This document shows, in pieces, positions 11,077 to 61,341 of a stretch of 64,000 nt of DNA. Origin of the DNA: Streptomyces alfalfae (GTDB lineage: Bacteria; Actinomycetota; Actinomycetes; Streptomycetales; Streptomycetaceae). The notes beneath the pieces are model-generated. The model searched no databases, had not been told where the DNA came from, and saw only the letters and a program-made list of their open reading frames with translations. The position numbers and the translations under genes are program-made. The stretch's first letter is position 1; each line of letters opens with the position of its first letter. The stretch is from NCBI RefSeq assembly GCF_004127445.1, contig NZ_QEXM01000029.1, positions 1 through 64,000 on the forward strand, given 5' to 3'.

Positions 11077-11670
11077 TCAGCTCTGCTTGTCGTAGGTGAG
11101 GAAGATCGTGCCGCTGTCGAGGAGTACGACGTCCGTGCGCTCGTAGCGCACCGGCTCGAAGGGCGTCTTCTGTGAGAACAGGGGTGTGCCCGAACCCAGC
11201 GTCAGCGGCCCGACCTTGACGACGAGACGGTCGATCTCGTCCCGCAGCACCCCGGCCAGCTCGCCGCCGCCGCAGAGCCAGATGTCCTTGCCGTCCTCGC
11301 GCTTGAGCTCCCGCACCTTCTCGACCGGGTCGGAGGCGACGAGTTCGACGCCGGGGTCGGGGCTCTCGGTCAGGGTGCGGCTGAAGACGAGGTGCCGCAG
11401 GTGGGGGTAGGCGTTGGGCAGCCCGGCGTCCACGCCGATCATGTACGTCCTGCGTCCCTCCAGGACCGTGTCGAAGTGCGTCCCCTCGGCGGTGACGCCG
11501 AGGGCCTCCCTGGCCGGGGCCGGCAGGGTCTCCGGGTACGTCTCCGCGAGGTGCTTGACGTAGTCCTGGCCGACCGGCCAGAAGCCGTCGGGGCCGGTCG
11601 GGTCGGAACCGTCCGGCCCGGCGATGAACCCGTCGACACTGACGGCGATGAAGTAGACGAGCTTTCGCAT
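11077..11670 (-). CDS. Dihydrofolate reductase-family (RibD C-terminal-like) oxidoreductase
   Basis: 197 residues. The N-terminus MRKLVYFIAVSVDGFIAGPDG, the centre VLEGRRTYMIG and the C-terminal DIWLCGGGELAGVLRDEIDRL are diagnostic of DHFR-like proteins related to the RibD reductase domain, which bind NADPH. True folate reduction is unlikely because key DHFR residues differ; most relatives are uncharacterised. It is monocistronic. Its upstream region has a good promoter on the minus strand with two copies of a 12-bp direct repeat 28 bp apart, implying a dedicated regulator. Beyond that lies an 0.8-kb gene-free repeat region. Confidence 0.85.
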   Translation of the reverse strand: MRKLVYFIAVSVDGFIAGPDGSDPTGPDGFWPVGQDYVKHLAETYPETLPAPAREALGVTAEGTHFDTVLEGRRTYMIGVDAGLPNAYPHLRHLVFSRTLTESPDPGVELVASDPVEKVRELKREDGKDIWLCGGGELAGVLRDEIDRLVVKVGPLTLGSGTPLFSQKTPFEPVRYERTDVVLLDSGTIFLTYDKQS

Positions 11671-11694
11671 GGGGGCTCCCTCGTAACACTCCGA

Positions 11695-11737
11695 TTGAAG
11701 TGGTGTGACCGTAGTACTTCACTTGGAGTGGTGTCAA
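11695..11737 (-). promoter_or_regulatory. Promoter with paired 12-bp direct repeats upstream of the DHFR-like gene
   Basis: On the minus strand TTGACA (11732-11737) and TACGGT (11708-11713) are separated by 18 nt. The plus-strand word TTGRAGTGGTGT occurs at 11695-11706 and 11723-11734, 28 bp apart and differing at one position. The copies bracket the -10 box and overlap the -35 box, a repressor-like layout. Confidence 0.55.
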
Positions 11738-11777
11738 CAGGCTTCTGGCACGGCGGCCTGCGTCGCCCCCCCCCGGG

Positions 11778-12087
11778 GGGCAGGCCGTCGGTACGGCGGC
11801 GCTGCGCCGACCGGGCAGGCTGTCGGCTCGCGGCGCGCTGGGCCGCCGGAAGGGGTGTCGGCCGGAGGGCACCGCGTCGTCCGGCAGGCTGTCGGCACGC
11901 CGGCCACCGCTCCGGCCGGGCGGGCTGTCGGGACGTCAGGCACCGCGCCGCCGGACAGGTATTCGGCCCGCCGACCGCTGCGCCACTGCGCCACTGCGCC
12001 ACTGCGCCGCTGGGCCACTGGGCCACTGGGCCACTGGGCCACTGGGCCACTGGGCCAGGCTTTCGGCATGACGGCCACCGCACCACC
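11778..12087. repeat. 35-bp tandem repeat array, seven units, interrupted
   Basis: Units begin at 11778, 11813, 11848, 11883, 11918 and 11953 with exactly 35-bp periodicity, each starting like GGGCAGGCTGTCGG followed by 21 less conserved bases ending near CCGCC. A seventh unit resumes at 12053-12087 after an 8-bp repeat array. The period is not a multiple of three, so it is not a coding repeat. It lies between the DHFR-like gene promoter and the zinc-ribbon gene. Confidence 0.75.
11981..12052. repeat. Octanucleotide tandem repeat, nine units
   Basis: Three copies of CGCCACTG, one CGCCGCTG and five GGCCACTG in perfect 8-bp register, followed by GGCCAGGC. Such an array is prone to copy-number change by slippage. 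It interrupts the 35-bp array. Confidence 0.85.
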
Positions 12088-12540
12088 GGCCATCCGTGCC
12101 GCCCCGCTTGCCGCTCGGGCTACGCCCGCGAGCCGAGCGTCCACCGCTTTCGCTGCGACCCGCGAGATCCAGTCGCCAGCCGCAAGCGACGCCGCCGCCC
12201 TGAGTGGAGCCGTGCGCGACCAAGAGCCCCACGGCTCCTCACTTCTCCTGCGGCCGTCGACCGGGGTCGGCGCCCGTGACGCATGTCGTCCGGGGCGAGA
12301 ACACGTGACGGCGCGCAGCGCGGGGCGATGCGGGGCTGCTACCGCCGCCCCCCGGGACATCAGCAGCGGACCATGCCCGGCCCTGCCGTGACAGCGGCAC
12401 CGGAACCGTCCTCGCGCCGAGGGCCACGCACCGACAAGACTCGTGAGCGCCACCGCACTCGCCCGCCGCGCAATGCCTCGCGGTGCTTCGGTGGGCCGGG
12501 GGCGGGGACGGCCTCGCTGGGCCGGTGGCCCCACGGCCCG
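12088..12540. other. Gene-free stretch downstream of the repeats
   Basis: About 450 bp with no frame showing normal codon bias, no ribosome site and no recognisable RNA. Long open frames on both strands are Arg/Ala/Pro-rich translations of GC-rich sequence. With the repeats, this makes 0.87 kb without a gene between 11671 and 12540. Confidence 0.6.
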
Positions 12541-12768
12541 CTACGTGTCCGCGCGGTACAGCTTGATCTCGCGGTTCACGAAGAGGTGCACATAGCCGCA
12601 CCGCCAGCAGATCAGCCCGGTCGCCGTCTCGTCGGCCCAGGCCAGCTTCATGAACTCCATGCCGAAGCTGTTCAGCTTCACGTCCCGTTCGCGGAACCTC
12701 TCCGAGCCGCAGACCTGGCAGTTGATCCACATCTCCCCGATGGCGGCCTTCACCGGCTTGGCGGCCAT
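12541..12768 (-). CDS. Small zinc-ribbon protein
   Basis: 75 residues from the ATG at 12768, chosen because GGGGAG lies just upstream; an in-frame ATG 16 codons earlier lacks a good site. Two CxxC knuckles, INCQVCGSERF and LICWRCGYVHLF, would bind one zinc. Between them are ERDVKLNSFGMEF and WADETATG. Similar short proteins are common in actinobacteria as possible nucleic-acid or protein-binding factors; no function is known to me. It is monocistronic, between the repeat region and the MFS pump gene. Confidence 0.8.
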   Translation of the reverse strand: MAAKPVKAAIGEMWINCQVCGSERFRERDVKLNSFGMEFMKLAWADETATGLICWRCGYVHLFVNREIKLYRADT

Positions 12769-12819
12769 GGCTCTCCCCGTCCCTCGGCTGTCCCCGTCAC
12801 CGACGGCGCTGGTCATACG

Positions 12820-12849
12820 CCGACGCCCCGAGGCTACCCGGGGCGTCGG
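12820..12849. terminator. Hairpin terminator after the MFS gene
   Basis: CCGACGCCCCG and its exact complement around an 8-nt loop, 19 bp beyond the MFS stop on the minus strand and upstream of the zinc-ribbon gene. Confidence 0.7.
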
Positions 12850-57303: not shown

Positions 57304-60300
57304 GTGCGGGGCTACGAACGCCAAGAGAGCTCGCGGGCTGAGACCGACAGTCTTTCGCGGTTCGAGGCCGAGATGGACCGGCTGAAGACTGATCGGGAGA
57401 AGGCCGTTCAGCACGCCGAGGACCTCGGCTACCAGGTCGAGGTGTTGCGCGCCAAGCTGCACGAGGCGCGCCGCAACCTCGCGTCCCGCCCTGCCTACGA
57501 CAGCGCGGACATCGGCTATCAGGCCGAGCAGATGCTCCGTAACGCCCAGGTCCAGGCCGACCAGCTGCGCGCGGACGCCGAGCGGGAGCTGCGCGAGGCC
57601 CGTGCGCAGACCCAGCGCATCCTCCAGGAGCACGCCGAGCAGCAGGCCAGGCTCCAGTCCGAGCTGCACGCCGAGGCCGTGTCGCGACGTCAGCAGCTCG
57701 ACCAGGAGCTGGCCGAGCGCCGCCAGACCGTCGAGTCGCACGTCAACGAGAACGTGGCGTGGGCCGAGCAGCTGCGGGCCCGCACCGAGCAGCAGGCCCG
57801 CCGGCTCCTGGACGAGTCGCGCGCCGAGGCCGAGCAGGCCCTGGCCGCCGCCCGCGCCGAGGCCGAGCGCGTCGCCGAGCAGGCCCGCCGCAGGCTCGCG
57901 AGCGACGCCGAGGCCGCGCGCGCCGAGGCCGAGGCACTGCTCCGCAGGGCCCGCACCGACGCCGAGCGCCTCCTGAACGCCGCCTCCACCCAGGCCCAGG
58001 AGGCCACCGACCACGCCGAACAGCTCCGCTCCACCACCGCCGAGGAGTCCGAGCAGGCCCGCCGCAGGGCCGCGGAGGCCGGCCGGGTCGCCGAGCAGCG
58101 CATGGCCGAGGCCGACACGGCGCTGCGCGAGGCGCGGGCGGAGGCCGAGAAGGTCCTCGCCGAGGCCAAGGACGCCGCCGCCAAGCAGATCGCGGCGGCG
58201 GAGACCGCCGGTGAGCAGCGCACGCGTACGGCCAAGGAGCAGGTCGCGCGGCTCGTCAGCGAGGCCACTAAGGACGCGGAGTCCGCGAAGTCGGAGGCCG
58301 AGCAGCTCATCGCCGACGCCCGCGCGGAGGCCGAGAAGCTGATCGCGGAGGCCGCCGAGAAGGCGCGCACGATCACCGCCGAGGAGACCGCGGGCCAGCT
58401 CGCCAAGGCGGCGCGGACCGCCGAGGAGGTCCTGGACAAGGCCTCCAAGAACGCCAAGGAGACGACGAAGGCCGCCACCGAGGAAGCCGAGCGGATCCGT
58501 ACGGAGGCGGAGACCGAGGCGGACCGGCTGCGGGCCGAGGCGCACGACATCGCCGAGGAGCTCAAGGGCGCGGCGAAGGACGACACCAAGGAGTACCGCG
58601 CCAAGACCGTCGAGCTGCAGGAGGAGGCGCGCAGGCTGCGCGGCGAGGCCGAGCAGCTGCGCGCGGACGCGGTCTCCGAGGGCGAGCGCATCCGCGGCGA
58701 GGCGCGGCGCGAGGCGGTCAAGGAGATCGAGGAGGCGGCCAAGTCCGCCGAGGAGCTGCTCGCCAAGGCGAAGGCCGACGCCGAGGAGCTGCGGACGGCG
58801 GCGACCACCGAGAGCGACCGGGTCCGCGCCGAGGCCGTCGAGCGCGCCACGTCCCTGCGCAAGCAGGCCGAGGAGACCCTGGAGCGCACCCGCGCGGAGG
58901 CCGAGCGGCACCGCGAGGAGGCCGCCGAGCAGGCCGAGGCGACGCGGACCGAGGCCGAGGAGGCCGCGCGGGCGCTGCACGAGGAGACCGAGCGGGCCAT
59001 AGCGGCACGGCAGGCCGAGGCCGCCGAGGAGCTGACACGGCTGCACACGGAGGCCGAGGAGCGGCTGAGCGCGGCCGAGCAGGCCCTCACCGACGCCCGT
59101 GAGCAGGCCGAGCGCCTGCGCAAGGAGGCCACGGAGGAGACCGACCGGCTGCGTGCGGAGTCCGCCGAGCGCGTCCGCACGCTCCAGGCGCAGGCCGAGA
59201 CCGAGGCCGAGCGGCTGCGCACGGAGGCCGCCGCGGACGCCTCGCAGTCGCGCGCGGAGGGCGAGGCGCTCGCCGTGCGGCTGCGTTCGGAGGCCGCCGC
59301 CGAGGCCGAGCGGCTGAAGACCGAGGCGCAGGAGTCCGCCGACCGGGTCCGCGCGGAGGCCGCTTCGGCCGCCGAGCGCGTGGGCGCGGAGGCCGCCGAG
59401 GCCCTGTCCGCCGCCCAGGAGGAGGCCGCGCGGCGCCGCCGCGAGGCCGAGGAGACGCTGGGCTCGGCGCGCGCGGAGGCCGACCAGGAGCGTGAGCGGG
59501 CCCGCGAGCAGAGCGAGGAGCTGCTGGCCTCGGCCCGTAAGCGGGTCGAGGAGGCGCAGGCCGAGGCGGTGCGGCTGGTCGAGGAGGCCGACCGCAGGGC
59601 GACCGAGCTGGTCTCGGCCGCCGAGCAGACCGCCCAGTCCGTACGGGACTCCGTGGCGGGTCTGCACGAGGCGGCGCAGGAAGAGGTCGCGGGCCTGCGC
59701 TCGGCCGCCGAGCACGCCGCCGAGCGCACGCGGACGGAGGCGCAGGAGGAGGCCGACCGCGTCCGCTCCGACGCCTACGCCGAGCGGGAGCGCGCCGGTG
59801 AGGACGCCCTCCGCACCCGGCAGGAGGCGACGGAGGCCGCGGAGGCCGCCAAGGAGCTGGCCGAGCGCACGGTGGCCGAGGCGATCGCGGAGTCCGAGCG
59901 GCTGCGTTCGGACGCCTCGGAGTACGTCCAGCGGGTGCGCACGGAGGCCTCCGACACCAAGGCGTCGGCGGAACACGACGCGGCCCGTACGCGTGCCGAC
60001 GCCCGTGAGGACGCCAACCGCATCCGCGGCGACGCCGCCGCCCAGGCCGACACGTTGATCGGCGAGGCGCGCAGCGAGGCCGAGCGGCTGCAGAACGAGA
60101 CGAACGCGGAGGCCGAGCGCGTCCGCACGGAGGCCGTCGAGCAGGCCGAGCGGCTGCGGACGGAGTCCACGGCGGAGGCCGAGCAGCTGCGGGCCGACTC
60201 GACGGCGGAGGCCGAGCGGGTCCGCGCGGAGGCCGTCGCCGAGGCGGAGCGGCTGAAGGCCGAGACGACCGCGGAGGCCGAGCGGGTCCGCGCGGAGTCC

Positions 60301-61341
60301 GTGGCCAAGGCCGAGAAGCTCATCTCGGACGCGACGGGCGACGCCGAGCGGCTGCGCGCCGAGGCCGCGGAGACGGTGAACTCCGCGCAGCAGCACGCCG
60401 AGCGGATCCGCGGCGAGTCCGAGCGCGTCAAGGCGGACGCGGCGAAGGAGGCCGAGCGGCTCACCGCCGAGGCGCGCCAGGAGGCCGAGCGCACCCTGGA
60501 CGAGGCCCGCAAGGAGGCCAACAAGCGTCGCCAGGAGGCCGCCGAGCAGGTCGACACGCTCATCACGGAGGCCGCCGCCGAGGCGGAGAAGCTGACGGCG
60601 GACGCCCAGGAGAAGGCGCTCAAGGCGACCACGGACGCCGAGGCGCAGGCCGACACGATGGTCGGCGCGGCCCGCAAGGAGGCCGACCGCCTGATCGCGG
60701 AGGCGACCATCGAGGGCAACTCCCGGGTGGAGAAGGCGCGTACGGACGCGGACGAGCTGCTGGTCGGCGCCCGCCGCGACGCGACCGCCATAAGGGAGCG
60801 CTCCGAGGAGCAGCGCGACCGGATCACCGCCGAGATCGAGGAGCTGCACGAGCGTGCGCGCCGCGAGTCCGCCGAGGCGATGAAGTCCGCGGGCGAGCGC
60901 TGCGACGCGCTGGTGAAGGCCGCGGAGGAGCAGCTCGCCGAGGCCCAGGCGAAGGCCAAGGAGATGGTCTCCGACGCGACGTCCGAGGCGAGCAAGGTCC
61001 GGATCGCCGCCGTGAAGAAGGCCGAGGGGCTGCTCAAGGAGGCCGAGACGAAGAAGGCCTCGCTGGTCGGCGAGGCCGAGCGGATCAAGGCGGAGGCCGA
61101 GGCCGAGGCCACCCGCGTGGTCGAGGAGGGCAAGCGCGAGCTCGAAATCCTGGTGCGGCGCCGCGACGACATCAACGCGGAGATCTCCCGGGTCCAGGAC
61201 GTCCTTGAGGCGCTGGGGTCCCTTGAGGCTCCGTCAGGCGGCGGGAAGTCCGCGTCCGGTGGCGGTTCGGCGTCGGGCGGCGTCAAGGCGGGAGCCGCGG
61301 CGGGCTCGACCCGTTCGGGTGGCAAGCAGTCAGAAAGCTAG
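57304..61341 (+). CDS. scy: Scy, coiled-coil polarity scaffold
   Basis: 1345 residues from the GTG at 57304 (RGYERQESSRAETDSL). An ATG at 57253 would add 17 residues of Arg/Trp-rich sequence I judge unlikely; neither start has a strong site. After a short DivIVA-like N-terminus (FEAEMDRLKTDREKAVQHAEDLGYQVEVLRAKL) almost the whole protein is coiled coil built of 8- and 11-residue units such as AEAERVRAEA, ending in VRRRDDINAEISRVQDVLEALGSLE and a Gly/Ser tail. Scy gathers DivIVA and FilP at hyphal tips and sets tip number in S. coelicolor. It is followed by filP 180 bp downstream. Confidence 0.93.
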   Translation: MRGYERQESSRAETDSLSRFEAEMDRLKTDREKAVQHAEDLGYQVEVLRAKLHEARRNLASRPAYDSADIGYQAEQMLRNAQVQADQLRADAERELREARAQTQRILQEHAEQQARLQSELHAEAVSRRQQLDQELAERRQTVESHVNENVAWAEQLRARTEQQARRLLDESRAEAEQALAAARAEAERVAEQARRRLASDAEAARAEAEALLRRARTDAERLLNAASTQAQEATDHAEQLRSTTAEESEQARRRAAEAGRVAEQRMAEADTALREARAEAEKVLAEAKDAAAKQIAAAETAGEQRTRTAKEQVARLVSEATKDAESAKSEAEQLIADARAEAEKLIAEAAEKARTITAEETAGQLAKAARTAEEVLDKASKNAKETTKAATEEAERIRTEAETEADRLRAEAHDIAEELKGAAKDDTKEYRAKTVELQEEARRLRGEAEQLRADAVSEGERIRGEARREAVKEIEEAAKSAEELLAKAKADAEELRTAATTESDRVRAEAVERATSLRKQAEETLERTRAEAERHREEAAEQAEATRTEAEEAARALHEETERAIAARQAEAAEELTRLHTEAEERLSAAEQALTDAREQAERLRKEATEETDRLRAESAERVRTLQAQAETEAERLRTEAAADASQSRAEGEALAVRLRSEAAAEAERLKTEAQESADRVRAEAASAAERVGAEAAEALSAAQEEAARRRREAEETLGSARAEADQERERAREQSEELLASARKRVEEAQAEAVRLVEEADRRATELVSAAEQTAQSVRDSVAGLHEAAQEEVAGLRSAAEHAAERTRTEAQEEADRVRSDAYAERERAGEDALRTRQEATEAAEAAKELAERTVAEAIAESERLRSDASEYVQRVRTEASDTKASAEHDAARTRADAREDANRIRGDAAAQADTLIGEARSEAERLQNETNAEAERVRTEAVEQAERLRTESTAEAEQLRADSTAEAERVRAEAVAEAERLKAETTAEAERVRAESVAKAEKLISDATGDAERLRAEAAETVNSAQQHAERIRGESERVKADAAKEAERLTAEARQEAERTLDEARKEANKRRQEAAEQVDTLITEAAAEAEKLTADAQEKALKATTDAEAQADTMVGAARKEADRLIAEATIEGNSRVEKARTDADELLVGARRDATAIRERSEEQRDRITAEIEELHERARRESAEAMKSAGERCDALVKAAEEQLAEAQAKAKEMVSDATSEASKVRIAAVKKAEGLLKEAETKKASLVGEAERIKAEAEAEATRVVEEGKRELEILVRRRDDINAEISRVQDVLEALGSLEAPSGGGKSASGGGSASGGVKAGAAAGSTRSGGKQSES

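Follow-up and report, generated by a model that had tools for sequence, protein, structure and literature searches.

The window (the whole stretch of DNA that was analysed, 64,000 nucleotides of Streptomyces alfalfae) comes from an 8.27-Mb draft genome in 57 contigs. It contains a tandem array flanked by a RibD_C/DHFR-like gene on one side and by a 91-aa gene on the other; the minus strand carries both genes. The features of the locus are as follows.

11077 to 11670, minus strand: RibD_C/DHFR-like gene, 197 aa (Pfam PF01872, E 1.7e-11)
11682 to 11737, minus strand: conserved RibD_C promoter/operator region (alignment with seven other species)
11738 to 11776, no strand: probable eighth unit, more diverged, at the left edge beside the promoter (local score 17)
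11778 to 11987, no strand: six adjacent units of about 35 bp, starting at 11778, 11813, 11848, 11882/11883, 11918 and 11953 (TRF rows and core spacings)
11978 to 12057, no strand: nested 8-bp array, CTGCGCCA and then CTGGGCCA, 10 copies (TRF and sequence)
12053 to 12091, no strand: seventh unit, past the interruption (pair score 20 with unit 4; local score 23)
12541 to 12816, minus strand: gene of 91 aa whose two CxxC pairs look zinc-ribbon-like (judged by eye; open frame)

The Pfam match and the strand of the RibD_C/DHFR-like gene agree with the original prediction, which had placed the array upstream of a DHFR-like gene. The encoded protein has its best matches within Streptomyces and no NCBIfam match. 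The TTGACA of its promoter, at 11737-11732, lies directly beside the probable eighth unit, and the clear units start 41 bases further; TACGGT at 11713-11708 would be the corresponding -10 element. A simple consensus scan reported no promoter at this region. The promoter/operator of about 55 bp (11682-11737) was matched in 18 of 391 other Streptomyces genomes, as counted from the matches listed, and in an Actinomadura. By eye, the region forms an imperfect palindrome. At one distant locus (L149), a divergent TetR-family gene (Pfam TetR_N and TetR_C_31) stands beside a RibD_C-type promoter, and similar starts were seen by eye in other distant cases; no TetR-family partner adjoins the RibD_C promoter in this window. 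The 91-aa protein matches neither Pfam nor NCBIfam. DNA homologous to its gene occurs in 55 of the 391 other Streptomyces genomes (among the matches listed, E<=1e-8), and in a mixed set of 60 other genomes the protein itself was present in six. Beyond this gene lies a gene for an MFS transporter, identified by the Pfam search.

The codon-position GC spread was only 0.01-0.05 in five 300-base steps covering 11650-12549, compared with 0.39-0.54 in the steps that fall mostly inside the flanking genes. We therefore regard 11650-12549 as non-coding, and the earlier description of the interval as gene-free holds.

TRF detected a tandem array with a period of about 35 bp at 11778-11959 (score 126), and its best row reads the same array with a period of 105 bp (score 227). 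Among sequences simulated with Markov models of order 1, 2 and 3, trained on the non-coding interval including the array, TRF scores of 126 or more at a period of at least 15 appeared in 0 of 3000, 0 of 3000 and 1 of 3000 cases, respectively. The ungapped identity at lag 35, which is 0.50, is weaker evidence than the TRF simulation, with 66 of 2000 shuffles reaching 0.50 at some lag between 20 and 79. The array is real and beyond chance, but noisy. On the grounds of TRF and the Markov simulations, it consists of head-to-tail copies beyond chance; its seven clear units and one probable unit fall within the range of a minisatellite (four or more copies, units of 10-200 nt), and the low codon-position GC spread places them in non-coding DNA.

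The original prediction had described an exact array, with units of precisely 35 bp whose register is kept without indels over six units. While the array itself was confirmed by TRF and the simulations, its exactness was not, as indels are present. Read off the sequence, the cores start at 11786, 11821, 11856, 11890, 11926, 11961 and 12061, giving core-to-core spacings of 35, 35, 34, 36, 35 and 100, and one of the six adjacent units carries compensating 1-bp indels that shift it by one base. As had been noticed, the register resumes after the interruption: the seventh unit is clearly related to the others and most like unit 4, with a pair score far above the 99th percentile of the background, which is 7. 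Its local score against the unit consensus was reached by 0 of 20,000 null 39-mers; the null in this measure consists of GC-rich 39-mers, with a 99th percentile of 14. At the opposite edge, the stretch at 11738-11776, absent from the first account, is probably a further unit. Its local score was reached by a fraction of 0.0007 of 20,000 GC-rich 39-mers, and its whole-length pair scores are not significant.

It had also been stated that the first half of the unit is kept while the second halves have diverged, a pattern that our comparison did not reproduce. On average, pairs of units share an identity of 0.75 over the core and of 0.64 over the remainder, a difference reached in 2626 of 20,000 column permutations and hence not significant, with the core/rest boundary of this test set by eye. 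Moreover, 9 of the 21 spacer pairs among units 1-7 lie above the 99th percentile of shuffles. Since the spacers are related and the core is not significantly better conserved, whole units must have been copied, rather than a short motif being set in unrelated spacers. A higher-order duplication of 105 bp, the period with the top TRF score, was considered and rejected, because the identity at a lag of three units (0.71) is hardly higher than that at a lag of one unit (0.69).

The interruption, whose nature had been overlooked, is itself an 8-bp tandem array (TRF score 125, 95% matches). It fills the 100-bp gap between the cores, its initial copies lie over the latter half of unit 6, and it has apparently grown from the second half of a 35-bp unit. 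The octamer block was matched in 15 of the 391 other Streptomyces genomes, a count taken from the matches listed at E<=1e-8. We considered the octamer as a special motif and rejected this idea. A run of four CTGGGCCR octamers in tandem is present in 5 of 199 genomes, including its own, compared with 13 of 199 for the reversed control and 1 of 199 for a permuted octamer. Nor is period 8 outstanding among arrays with at least four copies in 1.25 Mb (six arrays of period 8, four of period 7 and 13 of period 9), and ordinary slippage fits. Several 8-bp direct repeats also make up the clt, or TraB-recognition, sequences of Streptomyces plasmids, and to this extent the octamer array is alike. It differs from them in that it had no match in the plasmid collection and in that its tandem runs are rarer than those of the reversed control. 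An origin of the whole array from a plasmid or phage was likewise rejected, as neither the plasmid nor the phage collections contained a match to it.

The RibD_C gene is kept at 82-88% protein identity in five close relatives, S. atriruber, Streptomyces sp. WAC 01529, S. silaceus, Streptomyces sp. G44 and S. huasconensis. In the four that have enough flanking sequence, both the MFS gene and the RibD_C promoter are kept, and no 35-bp array lies between them (S. huasconensis was judged by eye). The fifth has no 35-bp array in its 315 bp of flank, which holds small repeats of 28 and 13 bp, and the flank of WAC 01529 contains 21-bp repeats. The 91-aa protein was not found in the examined loci of these five species. 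In those relatives whose orthologous interval was inspected for frames, it holds genes instead: a Spo0M family frame in WAC 01529, a SpoIIE family frame in S. atriruber together with a second frame that resembles ATPase families below the Pfam cut-offs, and a 168-aa frame without a Pfam match in G44. The presence of these genes, together with a best TRF period that is a multiple of three, would suit the view that the array is what remains of a former coding repeat or of a gene that has decayed. However, the interval carries no codon-position GC signal and has no DNA match to the relatives' intervals, and its 14 stop-to-stop pieces, compared with 34 loci by tblastn, reached E 0.021 at best. We therefore judge a coding origin to be very unlikely.

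The wider genus gave the same picture. Of 18 RibD-like promoters found, 17 were examined, each adjoining a RibD-like frame, and the 800 bp upstream contain no 35-bp array in any of these cases. Two of the 17 (L139 and L142) are the same records as S. atriruber and WAC 01529, leaving 15 further genomes. Other repeats stand upstream of 5 of the 17, with best-row units of 15 to 25 bp. The array is thus not kept beside the orthologous promoter in the relatives examined, as would be expected of a regulatory array. When 11680-12830 was used as the query against the 391 other Streptomyces genomes at E<=1e-8, the 78 matches were made up of the 91-aa gene, the promoter and the octamer. With a query that included the octamer block, 95 of 198 other genomes gave a match at E<=0.001. 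Nineteen such loci (L003-L021) were run through TRF: 8-bp arrays were found in the 11 with a match to the octamer block, and no 35-bp array in the remaining eight.

A genus search with the unit, as had been proposed earlier, revealed no enrichment in related species beyond the control, which is one of the refuting outcomes that had been named. With only the units as the query (11778-11960), 13 of 391 other Streptomyces genomes gave a match at E<=1e-5 (best 2.2e-6), compared with 14 of 392 for the same units with reversed letters (best 7.7e-7); these genome searches score two or three first-look candidates per genome, so that a diverged array could be missed. Two of the 13 matches overlap a tandem array (L230, with a 37-bp unit, and L235, with 15- and 24-bp units), compared with none of the 14 controls. 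The weak matches were treated as background, with L230, the only one whose array has a unit close to 35 bp, kept as a lead. This locus, at 1395-1558 of a record from another Streptomyces (genome G399), is unrelated in its surroundings and non-coding-looking, and holds 4.5 copies of a 37-bp unit (score 153). One stretch shares 81% identity with units 1 and 2 over 60 bases, and the 37-bp units score 7-12 against the 35-bp consensus, whose null 99th percentile is 14. It is possibly a related minisatellite, or a convergent one.

Given that the repeat abuts a conserved promoter region, we considered that it could offer a row of protein-binding sites immediately ahead of the RibD_C -35 element, bound for example by a regulator able to multimerise along direct repeats. 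In numerical terms, the first part of the unit is indeed better conserved, a pattern that weak constraint could also give, but the difference from the rest did not reach significance, and the promoter occurs without a 35-bp array in the five close relatives, one of them judged on 315 bp of flank, and in the 15 further genomes. In addition, the interval contains no inverted repeat of at least 14 bases, and spacings of 34-36 bp would hold no helical phase. With up to one mismatch, the core motif occurs 120 + 120 times in the genome, compared with 127 + 126 times for the reversed control; since it is no commoner than the control, the genome has no dispersed set of such sites. A binding-site array is therefore unlikely. 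A variant of this idea is that of a young, species-specific cis-regulatory element, in which 14-bp cores beside the RibD_C -35 would be bound by a protein and the copy number would tune the promoter between strains; we regard it as a long shot.

Another possibility would be that the array is transcribed into a structured RNA or a leader RNA. The sequence is very GC-rich, and any transcript would fold strongly (-209.9 kcal/mol). However, this folding is no stronger than that of shuffles on either strand (z +0.16 and -0.78), and Rfam gave no match at E values up to 1, so the array displays neither folding beyond shuffles nor membership of a known family. The simple scan also found no promoter- or terminator-like site, although the same scan misses the inferred RibD_C promoter, and, being upstream of that promoter, the array should lie outside its transcript. 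An RNA of this kind is exceedingly improbable. Among the three readings first offered, the decaying repeat is supported, whereas the structured RNA is not, judging by folding and Rfam, and the binding-site array receives no positive support from the relatives, the motif counts or the conservation of the core.

The copy number could in principle be an artefact of assembly. Octamer runs are hard for short reads, and the genome is a draft of many contigs. On the other hand, the 35-bp units differ from one another and can hence be distinguished, and the contig runs through the array. We give hardly any weight to this explanation.

Arrays of this kind are common in the same genome. Twenty stretches of 20 kb from contig interiors (400 kb) contain 12 array loci with a score of at least 125, four whose best period is not divisible by three and seven with a low codon-position spread, which is no more than a proxy for non-coding DNA. 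A sample of contig ends (30 stretches over 5 kb with the first 1 kb cut; 518,761 bases) contains 21 such loci, ten whose best period is likewise not divisible by three and 12 with a low spread. Eleven of the 19 low-spread loci score above 227, which puts the present array in the middle of the ranking; the strongest has 4.5 copies of a 58-bp unit with 95% matches. The 129 kb around RibD homologues, mostly streptomycete, added two array loci that score at least 125 and have periods other than a multiple of three. Because equal or stronger arrays are common in the genome, an intergenic period not divisible by three does not indicate function here.

Taken together, these results point to a species-specific intergenic minisatellite, produced by slippage or unequal crossing-over and now decaying, a reading to which we assign a probability of roughly 0.86; the species sample behind it comprises one genome per species and a single strain of the array's species. 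A GC-rich unit of about 35 bp would have been multiplied head-to-tail by slipped-strand replication or unequal recombination, and later slippage may have given rise to the nested octamer array, in which the GGCC of each octamer could form small hairpins. The copies differ by substitutions and small indels across the full length of the unit, and the whole array would since have drifted without selection. It is probably ordinary, bears no sign of function and probably does nothing. At most, it would provide neutral spacing ahead of the RibD_C promoter and, perhaps, a variable-number marker; should the copy number differ among strains, the locus might be used for strain typing.

The MIRU-VNTR loci of mycobacteria are intergenic tandem repeats of tens of bases, and the MIRUs form a dispersed family with related units at many loci. 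The present array is similar in being an intergenic repeat of tens of bases in a GC-rich actinobacterium. It differs in that a search of its own genome at E<=0.001, in which 40 of 180 candidates were scored, gave one match to the unit, rather than the related units at several loci that mark a dispersed family. A private unit is usual for a minisatellite. A search of the literature by title found nothing on the 35-bp unit or on Streptomyces intergenic minisatellites as such, and nothing we found contradicts the earlier statement that no family with this unit has been described. A survey of prokaryote satellites, defined by units of 10-200 nt and at least four copies, includes S. coelicolor in its list of species that have more than 20 of them (Subirana and Messeguer 2019, PMC6749651) and gives for it 38 satellites, or 4.20 per Mb, of which 21.1% have units over 30 nt. 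The array shares the head-to-tail arrangement, unit length and copy number of those minisatellites, but it is diverged and contains indels, and it may or may not pass the regularity filter of that survey (PMC6749651). It can thus be seen as one more private minisatellite in a repeat-rich Streptomyces genome.

Two other repeat-bearing regions were observed in passing. Elsewhere in the same genome (L221, 13690-14551), three tandem arrays with units of 64, 31 and 58 bp (scores 379, 113 and 485) lie within 900 bp and have a low codon-position spread. Within the window itself, 60076-60367 holds strong tandem repeats of 33, 66 and 99 bp, multiples of three that are presumably coding.
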